A DNA stretch of 64,000 bases from Paludisphaera borealis (GTDB lineage: Bacteria; Planctomycetota; Planctomycetia; Isosphaerales; Isosphaeraceae), in contig NZ_CP019082.1 in assembly GCF_001956985.1 (NCBI RefSeq), forward strand, positions 4,898,001-4,962,000. The letters are read 5' to 3'. Below are positions 12 through 62,888 of the stretch, in pieces. Positions within the stretch are counted from its first letter, which is position 1; each line of letters opens with the position of its first letter. Below the pieces are notes generated by a model. The model saw nothing but the letters and a program-made list of their open reading frames with translations. It was not told the DNA's origin and did not search any database. Position numbers and translations under genes: made by a program.

Positions 12-115
12 GTGCGATTGGGAGCTTGCTCCCGCATGGGCCGCATGCCACGCGCGGCGGCAAGCCGCCGCACTCCAGATCCGCTTGGAACCGGCCTCAT
101 AGAGGCCGGCTACAA
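12..115. repeat. Dispersed repeat A, copy 1
   Basis: Two perfect hairpins (20-33, with a GGGAGC arm; 54-71, with a GCGGCGG arm) are followed by a palindrome ending in AGAGGCCGGCTACAA at 101-115. The same building blocks, with the hairpin pair in inverted orientation, occur at 38691-38828. This looks like a short intergenic repeat family, not a gene. Confidence 0.6.
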
Positions 116-290
116 AATACGGATTCTTCCGCTTCTCACTTCAAATCTCGTGCCGAACACGATTGCCGTTCCGGCCACCTTTTTCCGCAATAAACGAAGC
201 CATGCATTAGAATGCATAGTTGGATTTATTTCCGCGATCCATGAGTAATTCGCGCTCGAGCGCCTTCGGCGTGAAGTAACCGCTCGAACC

Positions 291-316
291 ATGCACTCGC
301 TTGCGCTTCGGGCTTG
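291..316. repeat. Dispersed repeat B, single arm
   Basis: This 26-bp sequence is identical to the reverse complement of the left arm (43430-43455) of the inverted repeat between 43430 and 43517. Only one arm is present here. Confidence 0.6.
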
Positions 317-483
317 GATTCGGAGTCATGCACTGCGCGGCGGGGAGTTTTACGAATTCTTTATCCCCGAGGGGCTCGTCTTTACTGCGGCTTTAGGCGG
401 CTCAGGCTAATAATGGAGTTCGAGGGGCGAACGATCGGGTCGAGCCCCAGTCGAACGTTCTGGACGCGGGAGGGGGGGCTGGC

Positions 484-567
484 ATGGATTTTCTGGCGAT
501 CGGGGTCGCGGCGCTTTGCATCGGCGCGACTATGGCGTTCGTGGCGATGGTCGATCGGCTCCATTGA
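484..567 (+). CDS. Tiny predicted membrane protein upstream of kdpF
   Basis: A 27-residue ORF encodes one hydrophobic segment (AIGVAALCIGATMAFVAMV) ending in DRLH. A purine-rich GGGAGGGGGG stretch lies just before its ATG, and it stops 10 bases before kdpF. Small proteins of this shape are often seen in front of kdpF in other bacteria, but I cannot assign a family name. It may be an extra small Kdp subunit or a leader peptide. Function is inferred from position only. Confidence 0.5.
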   Translation: MDFLAIGVAALCIGATMAFVAMVDRLH

Positions 568-577
568 GGATGATCGC

Positions 578-670
578 ATGACGTTGATTTATGGAATTGG
601 AGGCGTGGTCGTCCTCCTGCTTCTCGGATACTTGACCGTTGCGCTGCTCAAGCCGGAATGGTTCTCATGA
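578..670 (+). CDS. kdpF: Kdp potassium ATPase small subunit KdpF
   Basis: This 30-residue peptide has a single membrane helix ([15 protein letters not shown]) and the KPEWF C-terminus typical of KdpF. KdpF stabilises the KdpABC high-affinity potassium pump in the inner membrane. Its TGA overlaps the ATG of kdpA (ATGA at 667-670), indicating translational coupling in the operon. Confidence 0.9.
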
Positions 671-2442
671 CACCCAATATGCTTTTGCAGATCGCCCTTT
701 ACCTCACGGTGCTGGTCGCGCTTGTCAAGCCGCTCGGCGGTTACATGGCGAGGGTCTACGAGGGGACGTCCAGCGGGGCCGATCGCGTTCTCGGATGGCT
801 CGAACGCCTGATCTACCGCGCCGGCGGCGTCGACCGCGATGCGGAGATGAACTGGAAACAGTATGCGTCGGCGGTGCTGGTTTTCAACTTCCTGGGGTTG
901 GGCTTCGTGTACCTGCTTCAGCGCGTTCAGCACCTTTTGCCGCTGAACCCCCAGGGAATGCCGGCCGTCGGGGCGGATTCGGCGATGAACACGGCGATCA
1001 GCTTCGCGACCAACACCAACTGGCAGGGCTATGCGGGCGAGGCGACGATGAGCTACCTCACCCAGATGCTCGGCCTCACCGTGCAGAACTTCGTCTCGGC
1101 GGCTTCGGGGATGGCCGTCCTGGTCGCGCTCGTTCGCGGGTTCGTCCGCCGCGAGGCGTCGACCATCGGCAACTTCTGGGTCGACCTGACGCGGTCGACG
1201 CTCTACATCCTGCTGCCGCTCTCGCTCGTCCTGGCGGTGCTCCTGGTCAGCCAGGGGGTGGTTCAGAACTTCCAGCCGTATCGGACCGTCGAACTGATCG
1301 ACCCCGCGATCGACGCCTCGGGAACCACCGTTTCACAACAGGTCGTGCCGATGGGGCCGGCGGCGTCGCAGGTCGCCATCAAGCAACTGGGGACGAACGG
1401 CGGCGGGTTCTTCAACGTGAACTCGGCGCACCCGCTGGAGAATCCGACGCCGCTGACCAACTTCCTGGAAGTGCTGGCGATCTTGCTGATCCCCGCCGCA
1501 CTCTGCTACACGTTCGGGCGGATGGTCGGCGACGTCCGCCAGGGTTGGGCGATTCTGGCGGCGATGCTGGTCATCTTCGTCCCGCTCTTGCTGATCTGCG
1601 CCGGGGCGGAGCAGGGGGGGAACCCCGCGCTCGACAAACTCGGCGTCGACCAGTCGGCCGGCGGGCTGCAAGCCGGCGGGAACATGGAGGGCAAGGAGGT
1701 TCGGTTCGGGATCGCCGGTTCGGCGATCTGGGCCGCGGCGACGACGGCGGCTTCGAACGGCAGCGTCAACGCGATGCACGACTCGTTCACGCCGCTGGGC
1801 GGCCTGGTCCCGATGTGGCTCATGCAGCTTGGCGAAGTGGTCTTCGGCGGAACCGGCAGCGGACTGTACGGGATGATCGTCTTCGCGGTGATCGCCGTGT
1901 TCATCGCCGGGCTGATGGTCGGCCGGACGCCCGAATACCTTGGCAAGAAGATCGAGGCGTACGAGATGAAGATGGCGGCCCTCGTCGTCTTGATTCCGCC
2001 CATGGTCGTGCTGGTCGGCACGGCGATCGCGGTGCTCGGGCCGGGCTTGAACACGGTCGGATCGGACGGCGCGTCGAAGAGCCTGCTCAACAACCCCGGC
2101 GCGCACGGGTTCTCGGAGGTCTTGTACGCGTTCTCGTCGTGCGGCAACAACAACGGCAGCGCGTTCGCCGGCCTGAGCGCCAACGGCGTCTTCTACAACA
2201 TGGCGCTGGGCGTGGCGATGTTCCTGGCCCGGTACTGGCTGATCGTGCCGACGCTGGCCCTGGCGGGTTCGCTGGCGAAGAAGCGATTGACGCCCACGAC
2301 GGCCGGCACGCTGCCGACCCACACGCCGCTGTTCGTCGTGCTGCTCGTCGGCGCCGTGGTGATCCTGGGCGCGTTGACGTTCATCCCGGCGATCGCACTG
2401 GGACCGGCGGTCGAGCACTTGCAGATGATCGGCGGACGTTGA
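667..2442 (+). CDS. kdpA: Potassium-transporting ATPase potassium-binding subunit KdpA
   Basis: This 591-residue membrane protein is the ion-selecting channel-like subunit of the KdpFABC pump. The four pore signatures of the family are visible: [47 protein letters not shown] and [13 protein letters not shown] (Cys at about residue 492). Length is normal for KdpA. The start at 667 is chosen because it forms an ATGA overlap with kdpF; an in-frame ATG at 658 is less likely. kdpB follows after 44 bases. Confidence 0.95.
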
Positions 2443-53905: not shown

Positions 53906-55237
<1,332 letters not shown>

Positions 55238-55244
55238 GGGAGTG

Positions 55245-56249
55245 TCAGCCTTCCTTGAGCCAGCGGGCGACGTCGAGGGCGTGGTACGTCATGATGATAT
55301 CAATACCCGCGCGTTTGAATCCGGTCAGGGTTTCGAGGACGATCCGCCGTTCGTCGATCCAGCCGCGTTCGGCGGCGGCCTTGACCATGGCGTATTCGCC
55401 CGAGACGTTGTAAGCGGCGAGCGGCACGCGGAAGGCGTCCTTGAGGCGGCGGGCGACGTCGAGGTAGGCCAGGGCCGGCTTGACCATGATGATATCCGCT
55501 CCCTCGGCGAGGTCGATCGCCGCTTCGCGAATCGCCTCGTCGCCGTTGGCCGGGTCCATCTGGTAGCCGCGGCGGTCGCCCATCCCCGGCGCGCTCTCGG
55601 CGGCCTCGCGGAACGGACCGTAGTAGCCGCTGGCGAACTTCGACGAGTACGACATGATCGGCGTCTGGGTGAAGCCCGACGCGTCGAGCCCCTGGCGGAT
55701 CGCCTTGACCATGCCGTCCATCATGCCCGACGGGGCGATCAGATCGGCCCCGGCGCGGGCGTGGCTGACGGCCTGCTCGGCCAGCATCGGCAGGGTCGCG
55801 TCGTTGTCGACGTCGTACCGGCCGGCGACCTCGACGAGCGGTCCGCAGTGACCGTGGTCGGTGTATTCGCAGAAGCATAGGTCGGTGACGACCAGCAGCT
55901 CGGGCGCGCGCTTCTTGATGAGTCGGACGGCCTGTTGAACGACGCCGTCGTCGCGCGACGCGGCCGATCCGAGCGCGTCTTTATGCTCGGGGATTCCGAA
56001 GAGGAGGACGCCGGGGATCTTCAGATCGGCGACCTCGTCGATGATCTCGCCGAGCCGATCGAGCGAGAGCTGGTACTGCCCCGGCATCGACCCGATCTCG
56101 CGGCGCAGGTTCGTTCCGTGGTAGATGAACAGCGGGTAGATCAGGTCGTCGACGGTCAGCCGGTTCTCGCGGACGAGGTCGCGAATCCGGGGGTGGGCGC
56201 GAAGGCGGCGGGGGCGTTGCACCGGAAAGCCGGCGGCGGGATCGAACAT
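55245..56249 (-). CDS. hemB: Delta-aminolevulinic acid dehydratase (porphobilinogen synthase)
   Basis: This 334-residue enzyme joins two aminolevulinates. The zinc-binding DLCFCEYTDHGHCG (three Cys, zinc type) and the Schiff-base lysines in PIMSYSSKFASGYYGPF and ADIIMVKPALAYLDV are present. The start at 56249 (MFDPAAGFP) is chosen; an upstream extension is Pro/Arg-rich noise. It forms an operon with hemL. Confidence 0.96.
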   Translation of the reverse strand: MFDPAAGFPVQRPRRLRAHPRIRDLVRENRLTVDDLIYPLFIYHGTNLRREIGSMPGQYQLSLDRLGEIIDEVADLKIPGVLLFGIPEHKDALGSAASRDDGVVQQAVRLIKKRAPELLVVTDLCFCEYTDHGHCGPLVEVAGRYDVDNDATLPMLAEQAVSHARAGADLIAPSGMMDGMVKAIRQGLDASGFTQTPIMSYSSKFASGYYGPFREAAESAPGMGDRRGYQMDPANGDEAIREAAIDLAEGADIIMVKPALAYLDVARRLKDAFRVPLAAYNVSGEYAMVKAAAERGWIDERRIVLETLTGFKRAGIDIIMTYHALDVARWLKEG

Positions 56250-56292
56250 GGGGCGATCCTTGATCGGTGGGGTGGGACGAAGCGGGCGGGGC

Positions 56293-56320
56293 GGGCGAGG
56301 GGCGTTTAGACCCCTCGCCC
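56293..56320 (-). terminator. Perfect hairpin between rng and hemB
   Basis: GGGCGAGGGG pairs exactly with CCCCTCGCCC around an 8-base loop. There is no T-run on either strand, so it may be an RNA-stability element or weak terminator. Confidence 0.5.
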
Positions 56321-56332
56321 GACCGGTTTGCC

Positions 56333-59300
56333 TTAGTGGCCGCGACGGTGGCCGGGGGCGGGGGCCGGGATCAGCCGGACCTCGCCGCCGTTGGCGTCGA
56401 AGCACTCGATCTGGAGATGCTCGGCGGCGACGTGGTCCTTGAACTGGACCTGCACGCTCATGCCGCTCTCGTTCTCGATCCGGGCGATCTCCTTGCGCTT
56501 GCGGTTGTTGAGATACATCGCCACGTTGGGACCGACGGTGACGTTGATGCGGCGGATGTCCTCGCGGTGCGAGGCCAACGCCAGGAGCCGCATGACGTCG
56601 ATCGCCATGCTCTCGGCGGTCTTCAGGACGCCGGCCCCGGTGCAGTGCGAGCAGTCTTCGTAGACCGACCGCTTGAGGCTCGGCCGAATCCGCTGGCGGG
56701 TCATCTCGATCAGGCCGAACGCGCTCATGCGGAGGATCTTGGTCCGCGCCCGGTCGCGCTTGATCGCCTCGCGGAGGGCCCGCTCGACGCCTCGACGGTG
56801 GCGTTCTTCACGCATGTCGATGAAGTCGTTGACGATCACGCCGCCGAGGTCGCGGAGCCGAAGCTGTCGCGCGATCTCCTTGGCCGCCCGCAGGTTCATC
56901 TCGTAGGCGGTCCGCTCGGCGTCGTCCTCGACCCGGAAGTTGCCCGAGTTAACGTCGATGGCGACGAGCGCCTCGGTCTGGTCGATGACGATCGAGCCGC
57001 CTTCCGGCAGCGGCACGTGCCGGCGCTGGATCTTGGCGATCTCGTCTTCGATCCCGTACTTGTGGAACAACGGAACCTTCTCGTCGTAGAGCTTGACCCG
57101 GTTGACGAACCGAGGCATGACGACGCGGAGGAACTCCTGGGCGCGCTCGAAGGCGGCGGGCTCGTCGATCCAGATCGTGTCGATCTCGGACGTGAAGATG
57201 TCCCGGATGGTCCGGGTGATCATGTCCGATTCCTGGTAGATCGGCGCGGGGGACTTGGCCTTCTTGATCCGCCGGAGGATCACCTTCCAGAGTCGCAGCA
57301 GGTAGGCCAGGTCGCGGGCCAGCTCGCGCTTGGTCCGTTCGAGGCCGGCGGTGCGGACGATGAAGCCGAGCCCCTTGGGCGGGTTCAGCTCGTGCATGAT
57401 CTCGCGGAGCTTACGGCGCTGGCCTTCATCGACGATCTTGCGCGAAACGCCGACGCGGTTCAGGCCCGGCATCAGGACCAGGTAGCGACCGGGGATGCTG
57501 ATGTAGGTCGAGAGGGTCGGCCCCTTGGTGCCGATGCTTTCCTTGATGACCTGGACGAGCACCTCGTCGCCGCGCCGGAAGATCTCCTGGAGCGGCGGCT
57601 TGACCAGCCCCCGACCACGGCCGAACTTGCCGGCGCCCGCGGCGTCGCCGCGCCGAGGACGGGCTTCGACCGGGCCGCGCAGGCCCATCTCGCGCTCCAG
57701 TTCCTCGATCTCCTCGATCTCCCTGCGGATCTCCTGTTCGAGTTCGGGGTCGATCTCTTCCTCGACCGCCGGACGCGGGGCCTCGGCGTGGAGGTCGTCG
57801 TCGAGGTCGTCGACTTCTTCCAGTTCGTCAAGTTCGAGGTCGAGGTCGTCGTGCAGATCGTCGTGGAGGTCGTCGCCCCGCGCGAACGCCGGAGCGGGCT
57901 CACGGAAGCCGGTCGGCTCGTCGAATTCGGCGTCGAACACCTCGGGCTCGCGGCCGGTCGTCGGCTCGCCCTCGGGGCGGTCCCGCTTGCGACCGCGACG
58001 GCGACGGCGACGGCGGCCTTCGGTCTTGGCCTGGGCCGAGCCGGCTTCCGATTCGCCCTCGTCGTCGGCCCCCGCGAGGTCGCGCTGGTCGAGTTCGGCG
58101 AGCGGGTCGAAGCGGCGGTCGTCGGGTTCCGGCGCGCGCGGGCCGGGCCTGGCTCCGAACTCCGGCTCGACGCCCTTCTGCCGCTCGCGGCGCGGGACGT
58201 AGCCCGGCTCGCCGGCCCGGTTGTGAGGACGCGGCCGATCGCGCTCGGGCTCGGTCGGACGGTCAAGGCTCTCGGGGCGGAAGGGCGCGGCCTCGGGCTC
58301 GATCGGAGCGGGGGCCGGCCGGGACGGACGTTCGGGGGGCTGATGCTCGCGCGGGCGTTCCGGCTCGGGACGATCGCCCCCTCGCGAACGGATCGCGGCG
58401 CGGCCGCCGCGACGGCGCGGGAACTCGTCCGGCTCCGGCGCGGAGAATTCCTCGGCCGCTTCCAGACCCAGCTCGATCTCGTCGGGCTCGACGTCCTGGT
58501 TGGCCGGGGGGGCCGGTCGCTGGGCCGCCGGCTGCGACGGCGAACGGCCTCGACCTCGGCCGCGACGCGGCTCGCGGCGGCCGGAAGCGGGCGATTCGGG
58601 GTCGACGTCCTGGGGCTCGGCGCGTTCGGCCCGTTCCACGGTCGGTTCCGGGGCGCCGAACAACGACCGGGGGCGGCCCCGATCGTCAAACTCGAAGTCC
58701 GGGTCGGACGAGGTCGGGGGCCGCTTCCTGCCCTGCGTGCGACTGGGGGGAAGGTCGGGGTCGACCGGCTCGGCTCCGGTGCGCGACCTGCCCCAGAGGG
58801 GGTCGACCGGCTCGGCCGGGCCGAAGTCGCGTTCCCGCTCGCGCGGCCGGTCGCGGTCTCGTTCCCGCTCGACGCCCCAGTCGAAGCCGACCGGCTGCGA
58901 CCAGGAGGTCGGGCCTTCGTCGCGGCCGGCGGCCGCGCGCTGCTCGGGTTCGCGGACGTCCGCCGCGCGGGGAGGCGGCTCGGGGAGGCTCGGCGGCGCG
59001 GCCGGCTGATCGCGGTCGTCGACGAGTCCCTCGCCGAACCGTCGGGGCGACTCCGAACGGTCGCGTTGGCCCTTGACCGAACGATCCGGCCGCTCGCGTT
59101 CGGGCCGGTCGCGGAGCCGGTCTTCGGCGCGCGGGGGGAACGAGGTCGGGCCCAGGTCGGGGTCGGCCTTGGGGCGACGGCGGTCGTCGCGGTCGCGGCG
59201 CGGCTCGCGGGGCCTGGGGCCGGCGCCGGGCTCGGCGCCGAGGTCGGCCTCGTCGCCGCCCTCCTGGTGGCGGTCGTAGTACTGGGGCTCGACGTCGGAG

Positions 59301-59512
59301 ACGTGGAGGAACCCGTTGCGGCCTACCGAGAAGTCGACGAACGCCGCCTGGATGGCGGGCTCCAGGTTGACGACTTTACCCTTATAGATGTTCCCGGTGT
59401 AGCTCTCGTGGCTGGTGCGCTCGACGTAGAGTTCTTCGAGAACGCCGTTCTCAATGATGGCGATCCGGCACTCCTCGGGTTGGAGCACATTGATCAGCAT
59501 TTCTTTCTTCAT
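56333..59512 (-). CDS. Ribonuclease E/G with a giant insertion in the S1 domain
   Basis: This 1059-residue protein begins with the S1 half NIYKGKVVNLEPAIQAAFVD and GFLHVSDVE (to about 83). Some 550 residues of Arg/Glu/Pro/Asp-rich, probably disordered sequence follow, with an acidic run near the end (DDLHDDLHDDLDLELDELEE). The S1 half then resumes at about 646 with RRGDEVLVQVIKE. The catalytic part is complete: VAIDVNSG, VNDFIDM, and the zinc-link CSHCTGAG. RNase E normally carries its disordered scaffold at the C-terminus, so this layout is unusual. The protein follows the DUF2344 gene. Confidence 0.92.
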   Translation of the reverse strand: MKKEMLINVLQPEECRIAIIENGVLEELYVERTSHESYTGNIYKGKVVNLEPAIQAAFVDFSVGRNGFLHVSDVEPQYYDRHQEGGDEADLGAEPGAGPRPREPRRDRDDRRRPKADPDLGPTSFPPRAEDRLRDRPERERPDRSVKGQRDRSESPRRFGEGLVDDRDQPAAPPSLPEPPPRAADVREPEQRAAAGRDEGPTSWSQPVGFDWGVERERDRDRPRERERDFGPAEPVDPLWGRSRTGAEPVDPDLPPSRTQGRKRPPTSSDPDFEFDDRGRPRSLFGAPEPTVERAERAEPQDVDPESPASGRREPRRGRGRGRSPSQPAAQRPAPPANQDVEPDEIELGLEAAEEFSAPEPDEFPRRRGGRAAIRSRGGDRPEPERPREHQPPERPSRPAPAPIEPEAAPFRPESLDRPTEPERDRPRPHNRAGEPGYVPRRERQKGVEPEFGARPGPRAPEPDDRRFDPLAELDQRDLAGADDEGESEAGSAQAKTEGRRRRRRRGRKRDRPEGEPTTGREPEVFDAEFDEPTGFREPAPAFARGDDLHDDLHDDLDLELDELEEVDDLDDDLHAEAPRPAVEEEIDPELEQEIRREIEEIEELEREMGLRGPVEARPRRGDAAGAGKFGRGRGLVKPPLQEIFRRGDEVLVQVIKESIGTKGPTLSTYISIPGRYLVLMPGLNRVGVSRKIVDEGQRRKLREIMHELNPPKGLGFIVRTAGLERTKRELARDLAYLLRLWKVILRRIKKAKSPAPIYQESDMITRTIRDIFTSEIDTIWIDEPAAFERAQEFLRVVMPRFVNRVKLYDEKVPLFHKYGIEDEIAKIQRRHVPLPEGGSIVIDQTEALVAIDVNSGNFRVEDDAERTAYEMNLRAAKEIARQLRLRDLGGVIVNDFIDMREERHRRGVERALREAIKRDRARTKILRMSAFGLIEMTRQRIRPSLKRSVYEDCSHCTGAGVLKTAESMAIDVMRLLALASHREDIRRINVTVGPNVAMYLNNRKRKEIARIENESGMSVQVQFKDHVAAEHLQIECFDANGGEVRLIPAPAPGHRRGH

Positions 59513-59603
59513 GCGGTTGTTTCCGGAATTTATCGCGGTTGCGGTTGGTTGTTTCGTCAGGCGCCGGCGGGCCGCATGGCGGCGTTCGCGCGGCGGAATT
59601 CGG

Positions 59604-60251
59604 TCACGGGGCCAGCTCCACGTGGGTTCGCACGAGCACGGCGCCGTCGTCGAGCAGGTCGCGAATCCCGAGGCTGGCGAGCAGCTCTTCGGGTCGGACC
59701 GAGCCTTCGGGGGTCACCTTCAGGCGGGCGCGGAATAATCCCTCGTTGGTCAGTTGGGCGTCGATCAGGAACGGTCGCATGTCGAAGACGACGTCGCGGT
59801 CTCGGTCCGGCCGCCGCCGCGTCACGTCGCAGGACGGGCTGGCGAGCAGCGCTTCCACGGCGGCCGCCGCGTTCTGGCGGCGACCCTCCGGGATCGGCAG
59901 GTCGTACTCGACCCACAGGGGACGGGGAGGGGGGGCCGAAGGCTCCAGCGCCTCGGCGTCAAGCCACTCGAAGCCGGCGGGCGAGACGGCCGACAGCCGC
60001 TGGAGCAGCTCGGCGGGGTCCGTCGGCTCCGTCAGCTCGAAATCGACGATCTCGCGACGGCCTTCGATCCCCAGACCCATCGCCAGGGCGAAGACGATCT
60101 TGGGACGGGGCGAGAAGCCCTGGCTGGCGGCGACGGGGATCGCGGCGCGACGGACCATCCGCTCAAGACAGCGCATGACGTCGTGGTGGCTGGTCAGGCG
60201 GAGATCGCCGCGCTTGGCGAATCGGAGACGGACCTTGGTGGCTTTGGTCAT
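59604..60251 (-). CDS. DUF2344 (TIGR03936) radical-SAM-associated protein
   Basis: This 215-residue protein matches the family that usually sits with or is fused to a radical-SAM protein: KVRLRFAKRGDLRLTSHHDV, AIPVAASQGFSPRPKI, ALAMGLGIEGRREIVDFEL. The radical-SAM half is not visible within 340 bases upstream. It precedes RNase E/G, a common neighbour. The exact role is unknown. The start could also be a GTG at 60269. Confidence 0.82.
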   Translation of the reverse strand: MTKATKVRLRFAKRGDLRLTSHHDVMRCLERMVRRAAIPVAASQGFSPRPKIVFALAMGLGIEGRREIVDFELTEPTDPAELLQRLSAVSPAGFEWLDAEALEPSAPPPRPLWVEYDLPIPEGRRQNAAAAVEALLASPSCDVTRRRPDRDRDVVFDMRPFLIDAQLTNEGLFRARLKVTPEGSVRPEELLASLGIRDLLDDGAVLVRTHVELAP

Positions 60252-60588
60252 AACAATGCGGTGGATCACTCCACGAGGGCCGGCGGACGAGCGGCTGGGG
60301 TCGCCGTTGGCGGGCGAGGCCCGGTCGGCGCGGCGGTTCTCAACGGTCGTCGATCGGGGCCGGGCGGGGGCCCGGTGCTTCGGCGATCGTCCGGGAACCG
60401 ACCAGGGCGTTGCCGTCTGGTCGCAAAGGGCGTCGTGGGTGGAATCGGCTCGGGTTGTTTCGGGTTGCTCGTGTGTGTTCGGCGCGGTCGCCTCGAAGGG
60501 CGCCCGGGGCGAACCCTGGGGACGTCAGTGTACGGTCGACCGGTCGGACGGCGTCGGCGCGGCGGGCGTTCGCCCGGTTCGCGACGCT
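60252..60588. other. Intergenic region
   Basis: About 340 GC-rich bases with no convincing gene. A Pro/Arg-rich frame on the minus strand has no domain and is rejected. The promoter of the DUF2344-rng-hem group may lie here. Confidence 0.4.
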
Positions 60589-62559
60589 TCAACGAGAGGT
60601 CGTGGGAGTCTCCATCGCCTTGGCGTTCGTCAGGATCGGCCGCAGCGCGGCTTCGAGCAGCGCGACGACCTCCCGCGCGGTGTCGAGCCGGAGCGCCTCG
60701 GCGGCCAGCACCCGCGCGGCGTCGAGCCGCGCGCCGCGGATCACGCGGCGGACTTCGGGAAGTTGGTGCGGAGGCATGCTCAAGGATCGAAGGCCAAGGC
60801 CCAGGAGGAACAAGGCGTAAAGCGGTTCACCCCCCATCGATCCACAGACGCTGACTTCGATCCCTCGTTTCTCGGCGGCCTCGACCACCATGGCGATCAG
60901 GCGGAGGACCGAGGGGTCGGCGGCGCTGTAGAGGTCGGCGACGGTTTCGTTGGTCCGATCGACGGCCAGCGTGTATTGGATCAGATCGTTGGTTCCGATG
61001 GAGAAGAAATCCACCTCCTTTGCGAATTGGTCGGCCATGAGGGCGGCCGCCGGCACCTCGACCATCACGCCCAGCGGCACCGCGTCGCGGAGCGAGTGGC
61101 CCTCGGCCCGAAGCTCGGCGGCGACTTCGCCCACGACGGCGCGGGCGCGGCGCAGCTCGTCGAGCGTGGACACCAGCGGGAACAGGATGCGGACGTCCCC
61201 CTGGACCGCCGCGCGGAGCAACGCGCGCAACTGGGTGCGGAACAGTTCGGGGTGGCGGAGCGAGAACCGGAGGCTGCGAAGCCCCAGCACCGGGTTCGCC
61301 TCAAGCGAGCCCGCGCCGCGGTACGACGTCAACTTGTCGGCCCCCAGATCGAGGGTCCGGATGATGATCGGCTTGCCCTGGAGCGAGCGGATCACGGCCG
61401 AATAGGCCTGGTACTGCTCTTCCTCGGTGGGGGGCGTCGGGGCGCGGAGGTAGAGGAACTCGGTCCGGTACAGGCCGACCCCCGCGGCGCCCCACTTCAG
61501 GCAGGCGGCGACCTCGTCGACGAACTCGATGTTGCCGAACAGCTCCACCCGGACGCCGTCGAGCGTCTCGGCCGGCAGGCCGGCCTGCTCGGAGAGCACC
61601 CGGTACCGCGCCGAGCGGTCGACGGCCGCCGCCCGGTAACGCTCCAGCGTCGGCGCGTCGGGGTTGAGGACGACCAGGCCCTCGTCGCCGTCGATGACGA
61701 TCAGCCGGGCCGACCGCGCCCGGTCGACGATCGACCCCAGGCCGACGACCGCCGGGATCTCCAGGGCGGCCGCCACGATGGCCGTGTGGCTGGCCTGGCC
61801 TCCCGCCTCGGTCGCGAAGCCGAGGACCCGGTCGGGGTCGAGCTGCGCGGCCTCGCTGGGCGTCAGGTCGTGGGCGACCGCCACCGACGGCGCCGCCAAC
61901 CCCTCCTGGAACGACTTGGGACGCTGACCGATCAACTGGCCGACGATCCGCCCCTGGATGTCGCGGACGTCGGCGGCCCGGGCCGACAGGTGCGGGTCGC
62001 TGAGCTGGTCGAGTCGGCTGGCGAGCGTTTCGAGGACCTCGATCACGGCGTGCTCGGCCGAGATCCCGTAGCGCTCGATCCGCGCCCGAGCGTCGACCCG
62101 GAGCGTTTCGTCGGTGATCATCCGGGCGTGGGCGGCGAGGATGTCGGCGTATTGCGGGCCGAGCCGATGGCGGGCGTCGGCCTCGGCCTGCGCGGCCTCA
62201 AGGCCGGCGGCTGCAAGCCCTTCTTCGAGCCGGACGAGTTCGGCGGCGAGGGCTTCGGGGGCGACCTTGCGGGGGGGCAGGCGCATCCCCAGGGGGTCGA
62301 GCACCACCACCGGGCCGATCGCGATGCCGGGGCTCACGGCGATCCCCTTGACGACCTGCATGGCCGAGGCGTCGAGGTCCGGGTCGCACGGGCTGGTCGA
62401 GGAAGCCTTCGGCTGCATCCCTGGGTTCCCGTCGCGTTGGTCGAGTCCGCCGCCGGCTTCGGCGTCGGCGTCGAGAACCAAAACCTCGCCCGCGTCGAGC
62501 GTCGGCCGTCTCGGCGAGGCGTTCCCGTTCCAGGACGTGCCCTCATTCCCGACTGTCAT
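60589..62559 (-). CDS. ptsI: PTS enzyme I (phosphoenolpyruvate-protein phosphotransferase)
   Basis: This 656-residue enzyme transfers phosphate from PEP to HPr. It has the active His in TEAGGQASHTAIVA (His 258), NIEFVDEVAACLKWGAAGVG, GTNDLIQYTLAVDRTNE and the Cys region VSVCGSMGGEPLY. The first 66 residues are an Asp/Gly/Pro-rich extension not found in typical EI; the usual start would be Met 67 (MQVVKGIAVSPGIA, at 62361). The ATGA overlap with ptsH supports 62559. Confidence 0.93.
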   Translation of the reverse strand: MTVGNEGTSWNGNASPRRPTLDAGEVLVLDADAEAGGGLDQRDGNPGMQPKASSTSPCDPDLDASAMQVVKGIAVSPGIAIGPVVVLDPLGMRLPPRKVAPEALAAELVRLEEGLAAAGLEAAQAEADARHRLGPQYADILAAHARMITDETLRVDARARIERYGISAEHAVIEVLETLASRLDQLSDPHLSARAADVRDIQGRIVGQLIGQRPKSFQEGLAAPSVAVAHDLTPSEAAQLDPDRVLGFATEAGGQASHTAIVAAALEIPAVVGLGSIVDRARSARLIVIDGDEGLVVLNPDAPTLERYRAAAVDRSARYRVLSEQAGLPAETLDGVRVELFGNIEFVDEVAACLKWGAAGVGLYRTEFLYLRAPTPPTEEEQYQAYSAVIRSLQGKPIIIRTLDLGADKLTSYRGAGSLEANPVLGLRSLRFSLRHPELFRTQLRALLRAAVQGDVRILFPLVSTLDELRRARAVVGEVAAELRAEGHSLRDAVPLGVMVEVPAAALMADQFAKEVDFFSIGTNDLIQYTLAVDRTNETVADLYSAADPSVLRLIAMVVEAAEKRGIEVSVCGSMGGEPLYALFLLGLGLRSLSMPPHQLPEVRRVIRGARLDAARVLAAEALRLDTAREVVALLEAALRPILTNAKAMETPTTSR

Positions 62560-62888
62560 CGGGGCGGCTCCGCAACGGTCGGCTGTTGGATCGCTTCGCC
62601 GTTTTCGTCCTCGTAGAACCCGGCGGAGACCAGTTTCGCGAGCGCTTCGACGGCCTCCTCGGCGTCGTTCCCTCGGGCTTCGAGTTCCAGCAGAGTGCCG
62701 CGCTCGGCGGCCAGCGAGGTCAGGTCGAGGATGCTCTTGCCGTTGAAGTGACTACCATTATACAGAACCCGGACGTCGGACTGAAACTGGATCGCCAGCT
62801 TGACGAACTTGTCGGCGGGCCGCAGGTGAAGCCCCAGGCTGTTGGTGATCTCGATCTGGCGGCGGGCGACAGTCGTTTCGTGGGTCAT
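62556..62888 (-). CDS. ptsH: PTS phosphocarrier protein HPr
   Basis: This 110-residue protein has the active His 21 in GLHLRPADKFVKLA and the regulatory-serine region NGKSILDLTSLA (Ser 52). It is longer than the usual 85-90 residues because of an N-terminal and a C-terminal tail. It lies between EIIA and EI; no membrane EIIBC is seen in the window. Confidence 0.94.
   Translation of the reverse strand: MTHETTVARRQIEITNSLGLHLRPADKFVKLAIQFQSDVRVLYNGSHFNGKSILDLTSLAAERGTLLELEARGNDAEEAVEALAKLVSAGFYEDENGEAIQQPTVAEPPR

Follow-up and report, generated by a model that had tools for sequence, protein, structure and literature searches.

The gene considered here lies in a window (the whole stretch of DNA that was analysed, 64,000 nucleotides) of the Paludisphaera borealis genome (Planctomycetota, Isosphaeraceae; NZ_CP019082.1, positions 4,898,001 to 4,962,000 of the forward strand). 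It is one unbroken, ATG-started frame on the reverse strand, running from 59512 to 56333, and encodes a Rne/Rng family ribonuclease of 1059 amino acids (aa) whose S1 domain is interrupted by a very long insert. This is the sole RNase E/G match in the 7.65-Mb genome. The assignment to the Rne/Rng family is based on matches to TIGR00757 (476.7 bits; the cut-off is 325.95) and PF10150 (341.4; the cut-off is 25.5), and the protein scores below the cut-offs of both equivalog models: 417.4 versus 908 bits for E. coli RNase E (NF008074, a model of 1068 positions with the E. coli tail included) and 407.6 versus 594 for RNase G (NF008689). Pfam matches are found for the first half of S1 only (residues 39–77), for the RNase_E_G domain (PF10150, residues 672–941; 56690–57499 of the window, reverse strand, as for all features of the gene below) and for the C-terminal domain (PF20833, residues 954–1036; 56405–56653), with Cys954 and Cys957 invariant across 94 aligned sequences. 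Just 19 aa remain after residue 1040, so a C-terminal scaffold is absent from this RNase E.

Comparison with E. coli RNase E (2vrt and 2vmk) by phmmer aligns residues 3–81 with residues 2–80 of the chain, and residues 638–1032 with residues 87–483. From this gap in the alignment we place the insert at residues 82–637 (57602–59269): 556 aa where E. coli S1 has about six residues. It stands between the N-terminal strands with the first half of S1 (residues 1–81; 59270–59512) and the second half of S1 (residues 638–685; 57458–57601). A first AlphaFold2 run with 28 sequences was poor (mean predicted local distance difference test score, pLDDT, of 48.7) and the core fold was not taken from it; the second model, a single chain predicted with 94 natural sequences, assembles S1 from both halves. 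Its ten-residue means of pLDDT are 77–97 for residues 1–80 and 76–97 for residues 641–1050, and those of S1 (31–80 and 641–680) are 88–97 with a single one at 77. The modelled S1 barrel (40..676) matches E. coli S1 (1smx) over 81 out of 81 residues (rmsd 2.1, Z 12.8), and the S1/5'-sensor structure of Caulobacter (4oxp) aligns over model residues 36..767 (Z 18.7, 188 residues aligned, rmsd 4.2); the S1 domain is therefore complete rather than broken, with the insert as one of its loops. The model can also be aligned with 8b0j (Z 25.2, 390 aligned, rmsd 4.6) and with 2vmk (Z 27.5, 460 aligned, rmsd 15.6, as the placement of the domains differs).

An initial annotation of this gene, made from the DNA alone, had proposed an S1 domain split by about 550 disordered residues, rich in Arg, Glu, Pro and Asp and with an acidic block. 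All of this agrees with our analysis, except that the edges of the insert, given there as 83 and about 646, are moved to 82 and 637. The pLDDT is below 50 in nearly all of residues 93–562. Within the insert, just one element is predicted with confidence, an acidic helix adjoining S1 (residues 589–609; 57686–57748; ten-residue means of 84, 95 and 92), and a weaker helix is predicted at residues 83–92. No known domain hidden in the insert was detected in Pfam or NCBIfam at an E-value of 0.001. The composition is 17.4% Arg, 15.1% Pro, 14.2% Glu, 10.8% Asp, 9.2% Ala and 9.0% Gly, with no Cys, and residues 532–581 have a net charge of −17.

Conservation within the insert is concentrated in short blocks, of the kind that the initial annotation suggested looking for. 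Among 18 proteins of the family, the mean pairwise identity is 91% for residues 1–80 and 83% for the core versus 26% for the insert, in which eight blocks are 64–92% identical versus 15–21% between the blocks: DRSVKGQRDRS, RFGEGLV, PDLPPSRT, PRRGRGRGR, RRGGRAAIRSRG, RAGEPGYVPRRER, the Arg run and EEIDPELEQEIRREIEEIEELEREMGLR. The conserved stretches include RRFGEGL (residues 157–163; 59024–59044), which contains the motif F-[GAS]-x-G-[LIV], LPPSRT (residues 254–259; 58736–58753), GRAAIRSR (residues 370–377; 58382–58405), RAGEPGYVPRRER (residues 432–444; 58181–58219), with the top conservation (0.92), and the oligo-Arg block RRRRRRRGRK (residues 500–509; 57986–58015), whose run of seven Arg arises by chance in 12 out of 5000 shuffles of the insert. 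The acidic block (residues 547–575; 57788–57874), made of imperfect repeats, follows the Arg run and precedes the helix; the helix itself sits within block EEIDPELEQEIRREIEEIEELEREMGLR, and the identity of block 585–612 is 0.80. Short imperfect DNA repeats are found in the acidic block and elsewhere. The pattern GEPGYVPRR is encoded at one site of the genome, within this gene, and no second site was found. Across 30 genes of the family, F[GAS]xG[LIV] is present in 30, Y[VI]PR in 30, IR[SAG]R in 29 and a run of at least six consecutive Lys/Arg (K/R) in 28.

All 30 distinct unbroken genes of the family, the window's own included, carry 531–937 aa at the insert site. An earlier set of 20 plus three same-family stretches contained 18 whole one-frame genes including the window's (two others were cut by contig ends and three were frame-broken), with 523–929 aa between fixed flanks; the two ranges differ as the edges of the insert were drawn slightly differently. 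A search of the class returned 45 genomes of the same family; an RNase E/G match was obtained in 41 of them, and the four lacking one are all less than 90% complete. In five pairs of same-family genes, changes in the insert are about 1.7 to 2.3 times as frequent at codon position 3 as at positions 1 and 2; because of this excess, and because the in-frame motifs are kept in relatives, we conclude that the insert is translated. Frame breaks were observed in three related RNase E genes: L032 (genome G001) has one and L033 (G002) has two, inside the GC-rich insert, and L064 (G009) has one downstream, in the conserved core. As the places of the breaks differ, they probably reflect mistakes of sequencing or assembly where the DNA is of low complexity, and we hold a programmed frameshift unlikely for the same reason, with one of the breaks lying after the insert. 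In four other loci (L038, L041, L050 and L057) AAA or AAG is aligned with the start codon of the window's gene, so that their RNase E must start elsewhere.

The motif F-[GAS]-x-G-[LIV] was first spotted by eye in the long inserts of families f1 (the family of the window), f3 and f4, with a slightly wider pattern that was present in 24 out of 24 long inserts; the narrow pattern was fixed afterwards. We then counted the fixed motif in 30 new inserts of more than 200 aa, taken from 40 further loci, five of them seen earlier: there are 39 matches (0.7 are expected from shuffles), and 21 of the 30 inserts are positive. The excess is large in f1 (11 out of 11 inserts, 19 matches versus 0.28 expected) and in f3 (10 out of 17 inserts, 20 matches versus 0.40 expected, with acidic flanks at most matches), and the motif is not universal. 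Three look-alikes, of the form F-[NT]-[SA]-G-L, are present in L110. Among the named docking motifs of RNase E, none is known to us that resembles F-x-x-G-[LI]. Similar words are found in two N-terminal extensions: that of L182 (the same gene as L128), which has about 490 residues from the first Met, contains FGFGLFEE (the length at the S1 insert site is 20 aa), and that of L175 contains FGSGV (the S1 insert is 102 aa).

An S1 insert of more than 200 aa is present in 73 out of 159 distinct proteins, a set drawn almost entirely from Planctomycetota (identical cores were counted once, and rows without a usable same-frame N-terminal match, e.g. L070, L092 and L170, were left out); the sample was partly selected for long frames, so these are not population frequencies. 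On a FastTree tree of the 159 distinct core sequences, in which several long branches meet, the distribution of long S1 inserts (73 rows) takes six changes, at least five of them forced by the starred branches, versus a mean of 52.7 for shuffled labels. One class-level group of 106 rows has 62 long, two middling and 42 short: the insert is long in all 30 rows of the window's family, in three out of three rows of f4 and in 29 out of 31 rows of a group that includes the Gemmatales records (the other two are middling), and short in L055 and throughout a group that includes the Pirellulales and Planctomycetales records (all 41 rows). One early gain followed by loss and separate gains both fit this history. 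Disordered regions are found at other places as well: as C-terminal tails of up to 546 aa in Phycisphaerae, and N-terminally or at two places in other groups (the lengths of N-terminal extensions are those of the open frame from the first Met, and the true starts are unsure). In a distant planctomycete group (L172, L177, L178, L180, L181, L187 and L189), we observed an S1 insert of 233–290 aa together with a C-terminal tail of 239–372 aa. Runs of at least six K/R are found alike in C-terminal tails of more than 100 aa (21 out of 28) and in long S1 inserts (37 out of 73), which suggests that a similar module is placed elsewhere in relatives. The tree places L108 and L137, metagenome records that carry the title Singulisphaera sp. 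GP187, outside its Isosphaeraceae rows, so their titles are probably wrong.

The genes upstream of the RNase E gene (59604–62888, reverse strand) encode TIGR03936, PTS enzyme I and HPr; the neighbour gene (59604–60269, reverse strand) is assigned by Pfam and NCBIfam to the TIGR03936/DUF2344 radical-SAM-associated proteins. Downstream (53906–56405, reverse strand) are genes for delta-aminolevulinate dehydratase and, judged by eye, a look-alike of glutamate-1-semialdehyde aminomutase. An open frame of 1303 aa (56267–60178, forward strand) lies opposite the entire RNase E gene and probably results from GC-rich codon usage.

Actinobacteria are among the bacteria whose RNase E has large N- and/or C-terminal regions. 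Such homologs, found in many bacteria, are like the present protein in having a noncatalytic region placed unlike that of E. coli (PMC4435900), but the regions are at the protein ends, not inside S1. Closer to our case, S1 inserts of 50–150 aa have been published for alphaproteobacteria and plants (PMC4245959), and an insert of about 50 aa in Wolbachia has been called typical of alphaproteobacteria (PMC5436854). The present insert has the same placement between the S1 halves, but not the length. In Caulobacter crescentus RNase E (4OXP), the insert is in the same stretch of S1, is charged and predicted to be disordered and has a helix near S1; helices extend into the RNA site, and a fragment of S1 and 5' sensor binds RhlB (PMC4245959). 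Caulobacter, however, also has a C-terminal scaffold, and inserts of its type have 50–150 aa instead of 556. The plant chloroplast enzyme, which we set apart by description only, likewise has an S1 insert, whose deletion is reported to reduce activity (PMC4245959), within the same 50–150 aa range.

The E. coli degradosome scaffold resembles the insert in its length and disorder, in its short conserved motifs and in its Arg-rich stretches, the last of which bind RNA in E. coli (PMC4435900); it differs in forming the C-terminal half of the protein (with AR1, AR2, HBS and other microdomains). None of these microdomains was recognised by eye in the insert, in which the one predicted helix is acidic and no search for a membrane-binding segment was made. 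In cyanobacterial RNase E, PNPase is bound by the oligo-Arg nonapeptide RRRRRRSSA (PMC12489471). The two share a run of six or more Arg, a likeness of sequence only, but the nonapeptide is at the extreme C-terminus (PMC10989914), whereas the run here is inside S1 and is followed by GRK or GRR, not SSA. For Planctomycetes, a table of a 2011 review gives RNase E/G proteins of 509–588 aa, with a degradosome not predicted from protein size (PMC3071783), and a Gemmataceae proteome paper mentions the degradosome once (PMC8567305). In the literature covered by our searches, with the 2015 classification of RNase E types, in which such inserts may be listed, outside its scope, we recognised no description of an insert of such size and content. 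The initial annotation regarded an internal scaffold as a different architecture: the conserved motifs, the Arg run and the absence of a C-terminal scaffold fit this, but a disordered S1 insert as such was already known (PMC4245959). The insert is thus an enlarged, motif-bearing form of the known S1-insert type, of which the size and content are new.

We consider it probable that this protein is an RNase E/G with a degradosome-type disordered scaffold inside its S1 domain and with no long tail remaining. The position of the insert, the disorder in the model, the conserved blocks, the motif excess in two families, the intact catalytic fold and the lack of a long tail are all observed. A disordered noncatalytic region with conserved short motifs, as expected of a degradosome, is present, but within S1 and not terminal. 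By analogy with AR1 and AR2 of E. coli, the Arg blocks would hold RNA, and perhaps also PNPase, as the cyanobacterial nonapeptide does. The motifs F-x-x-G-[LI] and GEPGYVPRRER would be docking sites for protein partners and, since S1 anchors the loop at either end, the docked partners would be positioned near the RNA entrance. The acidic helix adjoining S1 may control the entry of RNA or be a binding site for a helicase, if the Caulobacter S1 region is a guide. Candidate partners exist, since the genome has a PNPase gene and 17 DEAD-family matches, two of them far stronger than the rest. The PNPase of the genome (L148) has a Gly/Pro/Arg-rich C-terminal tail, probably disordered.

Several points weigh against this reading. 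The scaffold role, with its partners and RNA binding, is putative. The motif was initially chosen by visual inspection of 24 inserts, the pattern then being slightly wider, and it is absent from nine of the 30 new long inserts (seven out of 17 in f3 and both of f97), from seven out of 10 long inserts of a named set (80 public loci with 13 inserts of more than 200 aa, three from genomes seen earlier) and from all nine inserts of more than 200 aa of other classes in a phylum set (20 loci picked for long frames); in total, 24 out of 49 long inserts have the motif once the pattern was fixed. Genomes of the same family are related, so that matches among them are not independent events. Out of the 73 long inserts, 36 lack a run of at least six K/R. 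Finally, of the 41 matched genomes of the family, 30 are counted, three are frame-broken, two are cut by contig ends and six were not fetched.

The roles of scaffold, gate and condensate driver are compatible and need not exclude one another. As a gate, the insert, chiefly its acidic helix 589–609, would mimic RNA and fold over the S1/5'-sensor cleft to regulate RNA entry, with the loop mainly a spacer. This helix alone is modelled with confidence in the insert and lies in a conserved block (585–612), and in Caulobacter, whose structure aligns with the model as given above, the insert helix enters the RNA site, with acidic residues suggested to be an RNA mimic (PMC4245959). We regard the gate as a possible but rather doubtful account, since it leaves unexplained why further, separate blocks are conserved 80 to 430 residues ahead of the helix, and the helix pattern [DE]PELxxEI is found in none of 20 f3 inserts. 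Alternatively, the Arg-rich and acidic blocks could drive the formation of RNase E bodies without specific docking: the insert has 17% Arg and 25% Asp plus Glu, with an oligo-Arg run followed by the −17 block, and charge blocks are held to drive the BR-bodies of Caulobacter (PMC10412687, PMC12510024). Near-invariant words like RAGEPGYVPRRER exceed what composition alone needs, and we think it unlikely that condensation accounts for the insert.

Two further explanations deny the insert a role. Neutral expansion of low-complexity sequence in this GC-rich genome, at a surface loop that tolerates it, would be consistent with the rapid drift and length change outside the blocks and with the short imperfect DNA repeats. 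It is nonetheless very improbable, as the conserved blocks are kept in 28 to 30 out of 30 genes, the motif excess recurs in new data and the insert persists in every unbroken gene of the family examined. An assembly error, a frameshift or a wrong gene model could be suspected from the frame breaks in this gene in three related genomes, but the window's own frame is open and the insert is in frame in 29 other unbroken genes of the family. We therefore reject this explanation, to which we give almost no weight; what the initial annotation had named as fatal to its proposal, a frameshift or an insert missing from relatives, is not what we observed.

Building on the internal scaffold, we also propose, as a tentative extension about which we are less than evenly confident, that Planctomycetia have an RNA degradosome type of their own: the entire scaffold would be a loop pinned at both ends in S1, where the lineage-specific motifs F-[GAS]-x-G-[LI] and GEPGYVPRRER would dock partners directly above the RNA entrance. 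The binding of partners would then be mechanically coupled to RNA access, and across Planctomycetota the scaffold would be N-terminal, in S1 or C-terminal. Should the insert prove to be a scaffold, these bacteria would depend for RNA decay on a complex that has not yet been sought, and a single protein family, with disordered regions placed N-terminally, inside a folded domain or C-terminally, would offer a direct test of whether the position of the scaffold matters.

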